From Oscillospiraceae bacterium (GTDB lineage: Bacteria; Bacillota; Clostridia; Oscillospirales; Ruminococcaceae): 6,558 nucleotides of DNA. The translations under genes and the position numbers were made by a program. Under the pieces are notes generated by a model. It was not told the origin of the DNA. It was given only the letters and a program-made list of their open reading frames with translations, and made no database searches. Numbering within the stretch: position 1 is the first letter of the stretch; each line of letters opens with the position of its first letter. Positions 1,221-6,213 of this stretch are shown here, one piece after another. The stretch covers positions 1-6,558 of the forward strand of contig JAFQND010000134.1 of NCBI GenBank assembly GCA_017396055.1, written 5' to 3'.

Positions 1221-2261
1221 ATGGCAGTATATCTTCATGATAAGTTTGCGCCCAAGATCGAAAAAGCATTCCGCGAGCGTTCGGTCGTAAAGGGCAGATT
1301 TTCTAACAGATACAGTTTTGACGGTGTACGCACCCTGAAGGTCATGAGCCTGGAGACCGCACCTCTGGTCGATTACGCCAGAAACGGCGCCAACCGCTAT
1401 GGCGAGCCCAGCGAGGTGCAGGACACCTATCAGACCATTGTTCTGGAAAAGGACAGGGCCTTCTCCAAGACCATCGACAAGGGCAACCATGCCGACCAGG
1501 GCGGTCTGAAAGCAGCCGGCACTTTTATGGCACTGCAGGTGCAGGAACGCTATATCCCCGAGTATGACGCATATATGCTGCAGAAGCTTGCCTCCAAGGC
1601 AGGCACCATTGTTGCCAACTCTTCCGCACTGACCAAGAGCACCGTTCTGACCCAGATCGGTGCAGGCATGGCAGCTCTGGACGATGCAGAGGTTCCCGCT
1701 GACGGCAGAACCATCTGGGTCAAGGCCAGCGTACTGAACCTGATCAGACTGAGCGACGAGTTCACCAAGATCGAGGAGCTGGGTCTGAAGGGTGTCAAGG
1801 ACGGCCGTGTGGGTGAGCTGTTTGGCGCTGAAGTGGTCAAGGTTCCCGCCGGCAGATGGCCCGCGGGCGTCAACTTTATCATTGCCCACAAGGATGCCGC
1901 AGTCTGTGCCGAGAAGATCCACGACACCAAGATCCACGAGGATCCTCCCGGTATCAACGGCAACCTGATCGAAGGCCGCTTCTATTACGGCGGCGAGGTT
2001 CTGGCAGCCAAGTGCGGCGGCGTATATGCAGAAGTTACCGGCACTGTACTGGCTGCTCCCAGCATCAGTGCTGCCGGCGCCATCACCGGTGCTTCCGGTG
2101 CGACCTTCTGGTATACCACCGACGGCTCTGATCCCCGTTATTCCGGCACCAGAAAGACCGGCACCCAGTCCGACGTGACCGCTGCCGGCACCGTGGTCAA
2201 GGCATATGCTGAGAAGACCGGCAGCTGGGACAGCCCCGTCACCACCGTCACTCTGGCATAA
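1221..2261 (+). CDS. Major capsid protein with C-terminal Ig-like (CHB_HEX_C-type) domain
   Basis: I chose ATG 1221 (346 residues). AAGGA at 1206-1210 lies 10 bases before it, whereas an in-frame GTG at 1215 would have only 4 bases of spacing. Residues 1-272 match the major capsid protein type common in Clostridia phages: an N-terminal basic stretch (HDKFAPKIEKAFRE), the SFDGVRTLKVMSLETAPLVDY segment, a conserved IDKGNHADQ-like core and a late ELFGAEVVKVP region. An HK97-type fold is expected from family knowledge. From about residue 275 a separate domain follows after an Ala/Gly/Ser-rich linker. It has the signature YTTDGSDP (298-305), then strand patterns VVKAYAEK and TTVTL, as in chitobiase/hexosaminidase C-terminal Ig-like domains. 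Such domains on capsids are thought to decorate the outer surface and may bind glycans. C-ending codons (GCC, GGC, ACC, GTC) are enriched compared with the genes after 2470, which fits very high expression. Confidence 0.88.
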   Translation: MAVYLHDKFAPKIEKAFRERSVVKGRFSNRYSFDGVRTLKVMSLETAPLVDYARNGANRYGEPSEVQDTYQTIVLEKDRAFSKTIDKGNHADQGGLKAAGTFMALQVQERYIPEYDAYMLQKLASKAGTIVANSSALTKSTVLTQIGAGMAALDDAEVPADGRTIWVKASVLNLIRLSDEFTKIEELGLKGVKDGRVGELFGAEVVKVPAGRWPAGVNFIIAHKDAAVCAEKIHDTKIHEDPPGINGNLIEGRFYYGGEVLAAKCGGVYAEVTGTVLAAPSISAAGAITGASGATFWYTTDGSDPRYSGTRKTGTQSDVTAAGTVVKAYAEKTGSWDSPVTTVTLA

Positions 2262-2280
2262 GGAAAGCCCTCTCCCGATA

Positions 2281-2297
2281 CAAACCCTTCGGGTTTG
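2281..2297 (+). repeat. Perfect inverted repeat (hairpin) after the capsid gene
   Basis: CAAACCC (2281-2287) pairs perfectly with GGGTTTG (2291-2297) around a TTC loop. There is no T-run after it. The core CCCTTCGGG recurs at 2339-2347 inside the neighbouring branched element. It lies 20 bases after the capsid stop codon, so it could protect or define the 3' end of the capsid mRNA. Confidence 0.7.
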
Positions 2298-2302
2298 ACT
2301 TG

Positions 2303-2367
2303 GCAAGAACGCTTTCGGCCCTGCAGGGCCTCCCGTAGCCCTTCGGGCTGGACGGCCGCGTTCTTGC
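2303..2367 (+). ncRNA. Candidate branched structured RNA element (three-way junction)
   Basis: A perfect 10-bp stem, GCAAGAACGC (2303-2312) with GCGTTCTTGC (2358-2367), encloses two further perfect hairpins. The first is GGCCC-TGCA-GGGCC (2317-2330), which as DNA is a 14-base palindrome. The second is AGCCC-TTC-GGGCT (2337-2349), extendable by TCC/GGA (2331-2333 with 2350-2352). An alternative inner pairing CGGCC/GGCCG (2316-2320 with 2353-2357) competes with the first hairpin. The base pairing is seen directly. That it acts as RNA, for example as a processing, stability or antitermination element, is inference. I recognise no known riboswitch or RNA family. Confidence 0.55.
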
Positions 2368-2404
2368 GGGGTGGGTGAAACAACAGAACTTCTACCGGTA
2401 AACC

Positions 2405-2446
2405 AACGGGGAGAAGGAGCAGGAAGAGCTCTTTCTTCCCGTTTTT
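2405..2446 (+). terminator. Intrinsic (Rho-independent) terminator after the capsid gene
   Basis: A 14-bp stem (2407-2420 with 2428-2441, two G-T pairs, no mismatch) closes a 7-base loop (2421-2427) and is followed at once by five T residues (2442-2446). AA at 2405-2406 can pair with the first T residues. This is a full intrinsic terminator on the + strand. It ends only 23 bases before the next start codon, and I see no -35/-10 pair between it and that gene. It therefore probably acts as a partial terminator that sets the ratio of capsid to downstream tail genes. Confidence 0.85.
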
Positions 2447-2469: not shown

Positions 2470-2841
2470 ATGACAGTAAAAGATGCGTATCATCTGGCAC
2501 TGGCGTGCCTGGGTGAGCCGAAAGCGAGCGAGGGCGATTATGAGGCTGATGTGGTGGTTGGAAAGGTAAACACGCTGATCTGGGAGCTGTGGCCTTATTC
2601 GACGGCACTGAGGGCAGCGGAAGGGCTGGCACCGGCGGAGCTGAAGGCAGTGAGCGTTCTTTCGGAGGAGATCTCACTGGAGGAGCAGATCGTAAGGATG
2701 CCGCTTGTGTACGGACTGGCGAGCGGTCTTGCGATGGACGACGATGAGATGGCAAAGGCAAGTTATTGGAACGAGATGAAAAACGAGTATCTGATGAAGA
2801 GTCTGCCGGCTGTGGTGGGCGAGATCGAGGACGTGTATTAA
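2470..2841 (+). CDS. Small helical phage protein, probable head-tail connector or head-completion protein
   Basis: This 123-residue protein starts at ATG 2470, 7 bases after AGGAGGTGA (the site runs 2456-2464). An upstream in-frame GTG at 2371 would extend it through the terminator and is rejected. It begins MTVKDAYHLALACLGEP, then has helical segments rich in Leu, Ala, Glu, including ISLEEQIVRMPLVYGLASGLAMDDDEMAKASYWNEM, and ends in an acidic tail (EIEDVY). No transmembrane segment or Cys pattern is present. Small all-helical proteins of this size directly after the capsid gene are usually adaptors that sit under the portal or complete the head in tailed phages. The PLVYGLASGLAMDDD stretch resembles such adaptors in general style, but I cannot name the family. 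It is the only small gene between the capsid and fibre genes, so it is the likely head-tail joint. Confidence 0.6.
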   Translation: MTVKDAYHLALACLGEPKASEGDYEADVVVGKVNTLIWELWPYSTALRAAEGLAPAELKAVSVLSEEISLEEQIVRMPLVYGLASGLAMDDDEMAKASYWNEMKNEYLMKSLPAVVGEIEDVY

Positions 2842-2853
2842 AGGGGTGAGAGA

Positions 2854-3864
2854 ATGAGTTTTAAGAAAATCACTGAGCCGGATCTTGCGGGTCTTGGCGT
2901 GATCGGTTTGCCTGACGCGCCGGGGCTTTCAGCAGCAGAGATGCAGGCAAAGATGGAAGAAGTGGTGCGCAGCGCGGTGATCCCTGCGTTCAACCGGCTG
3001 ATCGATGAGTTGGGAGCAGAGACGGCGGCAGGTCTTCTGGGCTTTGAGAGTGTAGACGGGCTGGAAGCAGCAACGGTGCAGGAAGCCGTGGAAGCGCTGC
3101 TTCGGACGATACAGCAGATCGGGGAAGACACTTCGGAGGCACTTTCGGCATTGGATGAAAAGGTTGAGAGCGCCCTTTCGACGAGTGAACAGGCGGTGGA
3201 AGAATCTCTTTCAGCACTGGATAAAAAAGTGACCGACGCTCTTTCGGAGACCGAAGAAAACGTCAGCATGCAGCTTGGCGAGATGGAGACCGTGGTAAAC
3301 GAAGCGGCGGAAGCGTCGCGTCAGGCCTATGAGACGGCGCTCAGTGAAGCGAAAAAGTATATCGACCAGAAAGTTATCAATGCCGGTTCGGCAGACATGC
3401 GATCGGAGGTATATGATCCGCAGGGCTTGAAGATGGACGTCTTTGCATATGCGGCGAACGCGGCAAATGCTGCGGCGGGGAAGGTGAGAGAAGAAACTGC
3501 AGCGGATGTAGAAGCGTTGGACAGAGAAGTGACCGCTATGGGTGAAGAGGTGGGGGCACTGACCGAAGCGATGAACGGGATGGCAGTCAGTATGCCGAAA
3601 ATCAGTTATGTTACAGCGACGCTGACAGCTGCGGGCTGGGCAGCGGAGGGAGAACTGTTTGTACAGAGCGTGGCGGCAGCCGGTGTAACGGTAAACGGAG
3701 AAGGCTTTGTCACACCCGCGCCGATGACCGACGCAGGATATGAGGCATATAGTGATGCGGGCATCAGAGCAAGGCAGCTGAGCACGGACGGTGTGATCGT
3801 GTTTCAGGCGGACGAGAAGCCCGGAGCGGATATCGCGCTGAAGATCGAGGTGGTGAGCGTATGA
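2854..3864 (+). CDS. Tail fibre protein with coiled-coil shaft and C-terminal beta domain
   Basis: This 336-residue protein has ATG 2854 preceded by AAGGGGTGAG, 12 bases after the upstream stop. Residues 1-95 form an N-terminal module likely to attach to the virion (SFKKITEPDLAGLGVIGLPD, then a helical segment). Residues 97-175 are a helical shaft with a clear 22-residue repeat: copies begin at Leu97, Leu119, Leu141 and Leu163, the first two being LSALDEKVESALS and LSALDKKVTDALS. Such a period, twice 11, suggests a hendecad coiled coil, probably trimeric. After about residue 245 a beta-rich domain follows (YVTATLTAAGWAAEG, then VTPAPMTDAGYEAYSDAGI, ending IALKIEVVSV). I know this type as the C-terminal domain of many fibre and tail proteins in Clostridia phages. 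It has no enzyme motif. Its stop overlaps the next start (ATGA), so the two are translationally coupled. Confidence 0.75.
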   Translation: MSFKKITEPDLAGLGVIGLPDAPGLSAAEMQAKMEEVVRSAVIPAFNRLIDELGAETAAGLLGFESVDGLEAATVQEAVEALLRTIQQIGEDTSEALSALDEKVESALSTSEQAVEESLSALDKKVTDALSETEENVSMQLGEMETVVNEAAEASRQAYETALSEAKKYIDQKVINAGSADMRSEVYDPQGLKMDVFAYAANAANAAAGKVREETAADVEALDREVTAMGEEVGALTEAMNGMAVSMPKISYVTATLTAAGWAAEGELFVQSVAAAGVTVNGEGFVTPAPMTDAGYEAYSDAGIRARQLSTDGVIVFQADEKPGADIALKIEVVSV

Positions 3865-5521: not shown

Positions 5522-5537
5522 TTCGGTCATTCGGTCA
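5522..5537. repeat. Tandem 8-base repeat over the toxin stop codon
   Basis: TTCGGTCA occurs twice head to tail (5522-5529 and 5530-5537). On the - strand it covers the last codons and stop of the toxin gene. It may be a slippage product or a join scar at the edge of the inserted unit; nothing more can be said. Confidence 0.6.
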
Positions 5538-5907
5538 GATGCTCACAAATCCAGAGAAAGAGCTCATTGTCATCAGCTTTGCCGGAAGCGACGGCAAGGA
5601 TGATATCGATCAGTTCCTGTTGGTCATATTGGAGCGGGATGCCGTTCAGCTCGAGAAAAACGAGCATGGCATGAGCTCCGGTACGCTTGTTCCCATCGAC
5701 GAAGGGATGGTTCTGGACAATGCCGAAGGCGAGTCTTGCAGCTTTTCGATGGATACCGAGATAGAGAGGGCGGCCGGCGAAAGTCTGGAACGGTGCACTG
5801 ACAGCGGATTCCAGCAGGCCGTCATCTCTGACACCGTCTGAGCCGCCAAAAGAATCGATGAGATGTTTGTGTAGAGTCAGAATATGAGCTTTGGTGAGGA
5901 TTTTCAT
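5527..5907 (-). CDS. doc: Doc/Fic-family toxin (death-on-curing)
   Basis: This protein has 126 residues on the - strand, close to the usual length of Doc proteins. The Fic/Doc active-site motif is intact: HPFVDGNKRTG at residues 67-77, matching HxFx(D/N)(G/A)NK-R, with the catalytic His67 and phosphate-loop Asn73, Lys74, Arg75. Upstream are the family elements FGGSDGVRDDGLLESAV (20-36) and AARLAFGIVQN (56-66), and the C terminus carries IILAVASGK. Family knowledge: P1 Doc phosphorylates elongation factor Tu and so blocks translation, unlike AMP-adding Fic proteins; here kinase activity is inferred from the motif only. The start ATG overlaps the antitoxin stop (ATGA), so antitoxin is made first and the two are coupled. 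The operon has its own terminator just past the stop. An 8-base tandem repeat (TTCGGTCA, 5522-5537) spans the stop codon. The protein looks complete and functional. Confidence 0.93.
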   Translation of the reverse strand: MKILTKAHILTLHKHLIDSFGGSDGVRDDGLLESAVSAPFQTFAGRPLYLGIHRKAARLAFGIVQNHPFVDGNKRTGAHAMLVFLELNGIPLQYDQQELIDIILAVASGKADDNELFLWICEHLTE

Positions 5908-6149
5908 TTTGCGAGCACCTCATAGGCGGCATGATTCTTTTCGATCAGACGCCGGCTGATGGCATCGATGTCATCGGGTTCGGCAATCTCAGCGGGCTCC
6001 AGTCTGGGACGGAAGGGAAGACCCTGCATCTGGACCGACTGGCGCAGGAAGATATTGACGGCGGTGGAAAGATCCATACCGAGGGCACGATAAAGTTCCT
6101 GGGCTTCGGCTTTCAGAGCGTCGTCGACGCGGATGTTGATGTTTGCCAT
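5904..6149 (-). CDS. RelB/DinJ-family antitoxin
   Basis: This protein has 81 residues on the - strand. I chose the ATG at 6149-6147 because GGAGGTGAT sits directly before it; a longer frame reaching back to 6239 would run through the promoter and is rejected. The N terminus ANINIRVDDALKAEAQELYRALGMDLSTAVNIFLRQSV is the ribbon-helix-helix fold of RelB/DinJ (strand at 3-8, helices after it). This fold forms DNA-binding dimers that repress their own promoter. The C-terminal part (LPFRPRLEPAEIAEPDDIDAISRRLIEKNHAAYEVLAK) should wrap the toxin and neutralise it. RelB/DinJ antitoxins are best known with RelE or YafQ type RNase toxins, whereas here the partner is a Doc-type toxin, a pair of mixed families. 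The stop overlaps the toxin start by four bases. Self-repression through the palindromes in the promoter is likely but inferred. Confidence 0.92.
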   Translation of the reverse strand: MANINIRVDDALKAEAQELYRALGMDLSTAVNIFLRQSVQMQGLPFRPRLEPAEIAEPDDIDAISRRLIEKNHAAYEVLAK

Positions 6150-6161: not shown

Positions 6162-6167
6162 ACACAC

Positions 6168-6196
6168 ATAATAGCACGATGTTATTACATTGTCAA
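6168..6196 (-). promoter_or_regulatory. Sigma-70/SigA promoter of the toxin-antitoxin operon
   Basis: On the - strand the sequence reads TTGACA (complement of 6191-6196), a 17-base spacer, then TATTAT (complement of 6168-6173). The -35 box is a perfect match, the -10 box differs from TATAAT at one position, and the spacing is ideal. The predicted start site, near 6161, falls at the first base of the ribosome site, so the leader would be only about 12 bases long. Confidence 0.9.
6169..6190. promoter_or_regulatory. Candidate operator palindromes inside the toxin-antitoxin promoter
   Basis: Two overlapping inverted repeats lie between and over the promoter boxes: TAATA (6169-6173) with TATTA (6183-6187), 9 bases apart, and ATGT (6179-6182) with ACAT (6187-6190), 4 bases apart. 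Ribbon-helix-helix antitoxins bind short palindromes of this sort, and binding here would block RNA polymerase. The repeats are seen; the operator role is inferred. Confidence 0.45.
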
Positions 6197-6213
6197 CACG
6201 AAAGGAGAATGGA

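Follow-up and report, generated by a model that had tools for sequence, protein, structure and literature searches.

A dispersed, self-complementary three-way-junction repeat, probably mobile DNA, behind a phage capsid gene and at bacterial gene ends

Introduction

The gap between a phage capsid gene and the gene that follows it was found to hold a branched, perfectly paired element, which raises the question of what such a structure is and what it does there. The gap lies in the window, by which we mean the whole stretch of DNA analysed; this is contig C26, 6,558 bases long, from assembly G000, which is fragmented (351 contigs) and 68% complete. Here the element is described and compared with related copies in phage and bacterial genomes, and the readings that could account for it are weighed.

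Results

Structure of the element in the capsid gap

The order of features in the gap is capsid stop, H0 hairpin, three-way junction, a separate terminator-like hairpin and the next gene. The features are listed below with the scores of two covariance models, R1, built from four copies of the element, and R2, built from 27.

1221..2261, + strand, major capsid (head) protein gene (phrog_422)
2276..2284, + strand, left-end sequence CGATACAAA, matched by eye in copies U3, c1 and c6 (L001), c7 (L085) and the L088 copy
2281-2287/2291-2297, + strand, H0 hairpin CAAACCC-TTC-GGGTTTG, 7 bp, directly 5' of the three-way junction
2298..2370, + strand, three-way junction, the repeat proper (R1 46.5 bits; R2 60.3 bits, E 8e-13)
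2303..2312, + strand, 5' arm GCAAGAACGC of the 10-bp closing stem P1 (partner 2358-2367)
2317..2330, + strand, P2, the 14-base palindrome GGCCCTGCAGGGCC
2333..2355, + strand, P3 hairpin CCGTAGCCC-TTC-GGGCT[GG]ACGG
2358..2367, + strand, 3' arm GCGTTCTTGC of P1 (partner 2303-2312)
2368..2404, + strand, right flank GGGGTGGGTGAAACAACAGAACTTCTACCGGTAAACC; in this gap of phage contig L001, parts of it border copies U2 and U3
2406..2446, + strand, terminator-like hairpin (inner stem 2422-2439) ending CGTTTTT, upstream of the next gene and outside the repeat
2470..2841, + strand, gene next 3' of the capsid gene, small, without a match in PHROGs or Pfam
5527-6146, minus strand, toxin of the Doc/Fic type (phrog_577, PF02661) with an antitoxin of the RelB type (PF04221), a match to a sigma-70-like promoter lying ahead of them

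The initial annotation had reported four perfect stems within 87 bases and a core sequence common to two of the hairpins. All four stems were recovered at the positions listed, and the core, CCCTTCGGG, occurs in both H0 and P3. The core of P3, AGCCC/GGGCT (2337-2341/2345-2349), is extended by CCGT/ACGG (2333-2336/2352-2355), and the two parts are separated by a two-base GG bulge at 2350-2351, whose TGGA context recurs in copies with a full-length P3. Folding of 2270-2400 gave -56 kcal/mol compared to -45.4 (sd 3.9) for 200 dinucleotide shuffles, corresponding to a z of -2.7, with 3 of the 200 shuffles folding equally well. This single-sequence excess is moderate, and it is the covariation across copies, given below, that provides the decisive support for the structure.

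Further genes of the window include one with a weak tail-fibre match and one with a weak holin match. The C-terminal domain of the head protein (residues 289-342; window 2085-2250) is weakly similar to CHB_HEX_C_1, just below the curated cut-off, and could possibly be a capsid decoration domain.

A family of dispersed copies

When the gap was searched with BLAST against 61 genomes and a phage collection, only short matches were obtained beyond the window itself, of which two in G000 proved to be copies and led to further ones. R1 located at least 18 distinct sites in G000 at E<=1, and R2 at E<=1e-3 gave at least 22 copies in G000, including that of the window, and at least 13 in the congener G005; these genome counts are lower bounds, as 150 first-look candidates were scored per genome out of more. 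At the same threshold, and with the same 150 candidates scored per genome, R2 gave no copies in the 12 other congeners, six of which are at least 90% complete. From the fetched loci 45 of 47 model matches were kept, the two dropped being antisense read-backs of palindromic copies, and one disrupted copy (c7, in L085) was added by hand. The resulting set of 46 comprises the window's copy, 23 from the rest of G000, 14 from G005 and eight from a phage contig (L001/L085). The first MAFFT alignments, with gaps misplaced in P2 and P3, were left out of the model.

The repeat is a three-way junction of about 75 nt (P1/P2/P3), usually with an H0 hairpin ahead of P1, and it is close to certain that the copies form a dispersed repeat family, of which the structure in the window is one member. 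The junction sequences GCAAGAA, CATA, GGAT with the GG bulge, and TTCTTGC are common to copies at unrelated genes. Incomplete copies include several with a short or with a longer P3, and one (L151) that consists of P1 and P2 only. Many copies with a common fold, placed at unrelated loci and differing in presence among close relatives, make the pattern that of a dispersed structured repeat of the ERIC, REP or MITE kind. The copies have diverged in their stems, and a recent spread from one master copy was not seen.

The IMG/VR contigs L001 and L002 are near-identical (3 differences in 11,035 bases) and encode a head protein 89% identical to that of the window, and their capsid gap contains two junction copies with another repeat between them. 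Compared with the window, L001 carries more copies in other gaps and on both strands; the gap ahead of the capsid gene, for example, is empty in the window but occupied by a copy in L001. Seven of the eight phage copies were found by the models in L001, the eighth being the disrupted one in L085, and two of the eight are antisense to the neighbouring gene. L001 thus has two copies in the capsid gap, but none was found at the loci of the capsid relatives L004-L010 (31-54% identity), and conservation specific to the capsid locus was therefore rejected. In the capsid gap of L004-L008 a hairpin was the sole structure seen.

The view that the element belongs to no known RNA family was upheld, as Rfam gave no match to the window at E<=1, and at the gathering threshold 11 loci with copies matched only at their tmRNA, THF and tRNA neighbours. 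R2 found nothing in 25 loci of sister genomes and capsid relatives. Three proteobacterial records that matched a P3 consensus pattern are not members, with best R2 scores of 15.1 and 11.9 bits for two and none for the third. Among viral contigs, a tail pattern and two copy-type patterns matched only the two known contigs and two chromosomal-variant patterns matched none, while the tail pattern occurred in one of 297 family genomes, namely in the window. A coding origin of the element through MARxL-like frames was discarded because stops break the frames. No three-way-junction repeat of this kind was found described in the open-licence literature.

The sequence just 3' of P1 is shared by some copies. 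L091/L112 and L095 have a tail like GCGTGGTACCTCTGT, with variants at L097, L099 and L156, and some phage copies carry GGGGTGGG in place of this chromosomal-type tail. Tandem copies with duplicated non-coding spacers are present at L154 and L120, which suggests local amplification.

Smaller repeats are found in the same neighbourhoods. A hairpin module of the form GACAC-stem-TTAGTC occurs on both strands, at 102-138 of the window, at 2018-2048 of L001 and in the flanks of L106, L121 and L124, and is also nested inside copies c2 and c4 of L001; it seems to form a repeat family of its own. L001 also carries, at about 6164-6213 and about 3745-3795, a MITE-like sequence (ATCCCTCAGTCGCC...GGGAG), which separates the two copies of the capsid gap and occurs again behind copy c4.

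Covariation and pair chemistry

Covariation in related copies had been proposed as a check on the element. The outcome favoured the pairing: in the 27-copy alignment both partners vary at 24 of the 25 pairs, and pairing is kept in 96.4% of cells. The function proposed alongside it did not fare as well, for reasons that follow. The covariation score was 0.582, compared to 0.187 for shuffled and no more than 0.08 for slid alignments, and a further one of the five measures, the number of further pair types, was matched or exceeded in 33 of 500 shuffles. These values are not formal probabilities, because the copies are related, the cells are not independent and the alignment (A6/A7) was fitted to the structure.

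The stem cells of 44 distinct copies, with one identical copy counted once, comprised 966 Watson-Crick, 7 G-U, 19 A-C and 28 other pairs. The same count for 29 tRNAs of the genus gave 433 Watson-Crick, 40 G-U, 1 A-C and 19 other pairs, and the repeats differed from the tRNAs with Fisher p values of 6e-14 (G-U to Watson-Crick) and 5e-10 (G-U to A-C). The tRNAs were counted at fixed stem positions, since ARAGORN brackets omit mismatches and an A-C count of 0 for these 29 tRNAs is built in there; the earliest control had used 5 tRNAs only. The H0 stems contained 345 Watson-Crick pairs, 5 G-U pairs and 6 mismatches, although here the low number of G-U pairs is partly built in by a score that favours Watson-Crick pairing.

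A fold maintained as RNA tolerates G-U pairs but not A-C pairs. Despite its strong compensation the repeat has fewer G-U than A-C pairs, and the scarcity of G-U together with more A-C than in tRNAs fits folded or template-switched DNA better than selection on RNA. It is thus more likely that the stem changes reflect DNA folding or template switching. Template switching is described as able to make perfect hairpin arms and to fix pairing in a single event, and on that description it would account for the perfect arms and for compensatory changes at several bases that pass through no G-U intermediate (PMC8794818). What is described there is a mutation mechanism, whereas the repeat is a dispersed sequence family.

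Position at gene ends and absence from orthologous sites

Copies stand 3' of argF, atpG, a pepC-like gene, tRNA and tmRNA genes (L097, L125) and others, and by eye the L107 copy also lies behind a tRNA. ArgF, AtpG and AtpD were named by NCBIfam, while the pepC-like gene has no NCBIfam match and its name is our own. In many copies the stop of a sense ORF is close upstream of P1. Two of the roles that had been suggested for the element in the phage are difficult to reconcile with these positions. A cis element serving the capsid mRNA would not be expected behind argF, atpG, pepC-like, tRNA and tmRNA genes, with some copies antisense, and a put-like antitermination role is made unlikely by chromosomal copies behind many unrelated genes. 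The repeat also does not resemble an intrinsic terminator, as five T in eight bases within 10 nt past P1 were found in 3 of 45 copies. One copy is located between atpG and atpD, where it can hardly act as an efficient terminator.

The same gene ends are empty in related genomes. The argF copy of G000 is absent in all 12 congeners that have the gene, although for one of these the downstream sequence available was just 165 nt, and the atpG copy is absent in 9 of 9 close orthologues, a count that leaves out paralogues at 33-35% identity in G003, G006 and G011. The pepC-like copy is missing from 10 of 10 full-length orthologues and one fragment, and the ssrA copy from 10 of 10, of which only five have at least 390 nt downstream. 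These comparisons are between species, and the empty sites could be losses; it is likely, however, that the copies move.

The H0 hairpin differs from the junction in being tied to the locus. In 38 of 46 copies the H0 position holds a hairpin that scores above the 95th percentile of mononucleotide shuffles, and in 37 of 46 the score is at least 14. The sequence of H0 varies from copy to copy, and many copies have a different, locus-specific hairpin. In 13 of the 46 copies (an uncontrolled count; 12 if the doubtful L159 frame is omitted) the 5' arm of H0 lies inside the end of the upstream coding sequence and the 3' arm is its inverted copy; ten of these 13 stems are perfect and three have one mismatch. 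In two of the 13, L098 and L113, coding sequence makes up both arms.

The argF locus gives the clearest view of such an end. ArgF ends VKLMERR* in G005 and VKLMEHK* in G010, compared to VKLME* in G000, where the gene reads on into the inverted H0 arm and takes its stop codon from it. These ends suggest that the 5' arm is the ancestral one and that the 3' arm was added later. The pepC-like gene retains the LAD* end common to nearly all of its orthologues and the inverted arm comes after it, while in atpG the last codon differs and the stop sits in the H0 loop. The copy in the window has neither a coding-end H0 nor a gene-terminus duplicate of the kind described below.

Recoded gene-terminus duplicates

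When the sequences upstream and downstream of each of the 45 copies found by the models were compared as protein, duplicates of gene termini came to light that flank the element on both sides; no more than one of 216 cross-pair controls scored as high. Six duplicates are clear. Three involve L001 genes, namely the gene before the capsid gene (which we call scaffold-like from its position), ORF 88-948 and a gene that we take to be lysin-like, and three involve chromosomal genes in L086, L151 and L152. Across 99 codons, 58 were identical, 37 differed synonymously and 4 nonsynonymously, in a tally that leaves out the non-coding duplicates at L154 and L120 and the by-eye duplicate of c7 (MRVLK start). 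The mostly synonymous differences suggest that one copy of each terminus is probably from a diverged allele. We infer that the duplicates may be scars of an incoming allele and element joined into or beside the end of a resident gene; an element that caused the joint and one merely located there would both fit them.

A constant polarity of the duplicates was considered and rejected, since the full gene lies 3' of the element in five of the six but 5' of it at L152. At L152 the order on the reverse strand (1100-1850) is gene, repeat, a 43-codon duplicate of the gene's end and a second repeat. Eight codons of this duplicate differ, all synonymously. The gene itself presumably encodes an SDR oxidoreductase, on our own reading.

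Discussion

The reading that we favour, and hold to be probable, is that the structure behind the capsid gene is a copy of a dispersed self-complementary repeat, likely a non-autonomous mobile DNA that would insert as folded single-stranded DNA, often at gene ends. It is supported by the copy number, the presence of both orientations in the phage, the absence from orthologous sites, the Watson-Crick compensation and the coding-end H0 hairpins. The element probably has no capsid-specific job in the phage. Under our working hypothesis the moving form would be single-stranded or replication-exposed DNA, H0 would form when the end of the target folds back and is copied by template switching, and some enzyme would recognise the common junction (GCAAGAA...TTCTTGC, CATA, GGAT with the GG bulge). 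Y1_Tnp, the sole transposase family searched, was absent from G000 (68% complete) and G005 (86% complete), and two were present in G013, where R2 gave no copies. No short target-site duplication was noticed by eye among the copies.

Among the points against mobile DNA is that copies so often lie behind genes in sense orientation, as would also be expected of an RNA acting in 3' UTRs. The repeat would then be a structured RNA at mRNA 3' ends, acting as a stabiliser, RNase site or regulator and spread in the manner of ERIC or BOX, and in the phage it would protect or punctuate the capsid mRNA. Such a role would account for the sense stops close upstream of P1, for the copies behind tRNA and tmRNA genes, for the strong covariation and for the location of the window's copy between the capsid stop and a terminator-like hairpin. 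It is nevertheless unlikely, because the ratio of G-U to A-C pairs is 7:19 in the repeats compared to 40:1 in the tRNAs, copies c1, c2 and L086 are antisense, one copy separates atpG from atpD, and the element is missing both from the same gene ends in congeners and from the L004-L010 capsid loci. We regard as somewhat less likely again the proposal that nothing moves, and that the repeats were made or reshaped in place by template switching at inverted repeats and carried along by homologous recombination of the flanking genes. The mostly perfect Watson-Crick arms and the match of H0 arms to gene ends are what this would produce, and the duplicates beside six copies, with their 37 synonymous and 4 nonsynonymous differences, look like recombination scars. 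It is opposed by the junction sequences common to copies at unrelated genes, which imply that a sequence, and not only a process, has spread.

A sequence that spreads could belong to the REP or REPIN elements, which RAYT transposases mobilise, or could be the MITE of some known insertion sequence, and a small, palindromic, multicopy element found in only two of 14 congeners, with P1 arms that could act as terminal inverted repeats of about 10 bp, has the appearance of one. REPs as described are hairpins of 20-40 bp tagged GTAG or CGTC (PMC3733652). The repeat is instead a branched structure of about 75 nt, and only 2 of 45 copies bear either tag at the base of P1. Y1_Tnp was not found in the two carrier genomes, both of which are incomplete, and no target-site duplication was noticed by eye. 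We consider this origin very improbable. There are still similarities to REP and REPIN sequences as they are described, as both are palindromic, extragenic, multicopy and often just downstream of genes, and both have subfamilies with alternative complementary stem bases (PMC3733652, PMC3116915).

Dispersed structured repeats are a known kind of sequence, and what appears to set this family apart is the gene-end hairpin together with the recoded termini, which to our knowledge occur in no other repeat family. Integron attC sites are palindromes at gene 3' ends that act as folded single strands, and group IIC introns insert next to terminator-like hairpins; the introns need an intron core, for which a repeat of about 75 nt has no room. 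Fungal double-hairpin elements and yeast GC clusters are short organellar hairpin elements that are scattered and invade intergenic DNA, and neither arms folded back from a gene end nor recoded termini are known to us in these or in the sponge mitochondrial elements. The sponge mitochondrial hairpin elements are, as reported, likewise short and scattered and recurrently invade intergenic DNA, but they are organellar while this repeat is phage and bacterial (PMC2800124). ERIC, BOX and bcr1 share with it a dispersed, mostly intergenic distribution and a common predicted fold, and the descriptions consulted mention no stem-loop family whose leading hairpin is formed from a gene end (PMC2267715).

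The preferred reading of the repeat as mobile DNA can be taken further, into a more specific scheme that we put forward tentatively and regard as unlikely. The folded three-way palindrome would be joined to broken or nicked gene ends, and the target strand would snap back and be copied, giving a locus-specific hairpin that could even supply the gene's new stop codon. The element would then mark the joint left where an older allele gave way to a gene whose terminus is recoded. If this were true, the repeat would represent a new class of mobile DNA borne by both phage and host, and would double as a module-boundary device in phage mosaicism.

Strong covariation is usually counted as proof of a functional RNA. 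Here it is accompanied by few G-U pairs and by inverted copies of coding sequence, and the folding of DNA or template switching is its more likely source, which provides a testable caution for the discovery of structured RNAs. If the element does move, it would be a non-autonomous repeat common to phage and bacterium that inserts at gene ends and spares the gene, and it would offer a direct way into hairpin-primed insertion and the formation of phage module boundaries.
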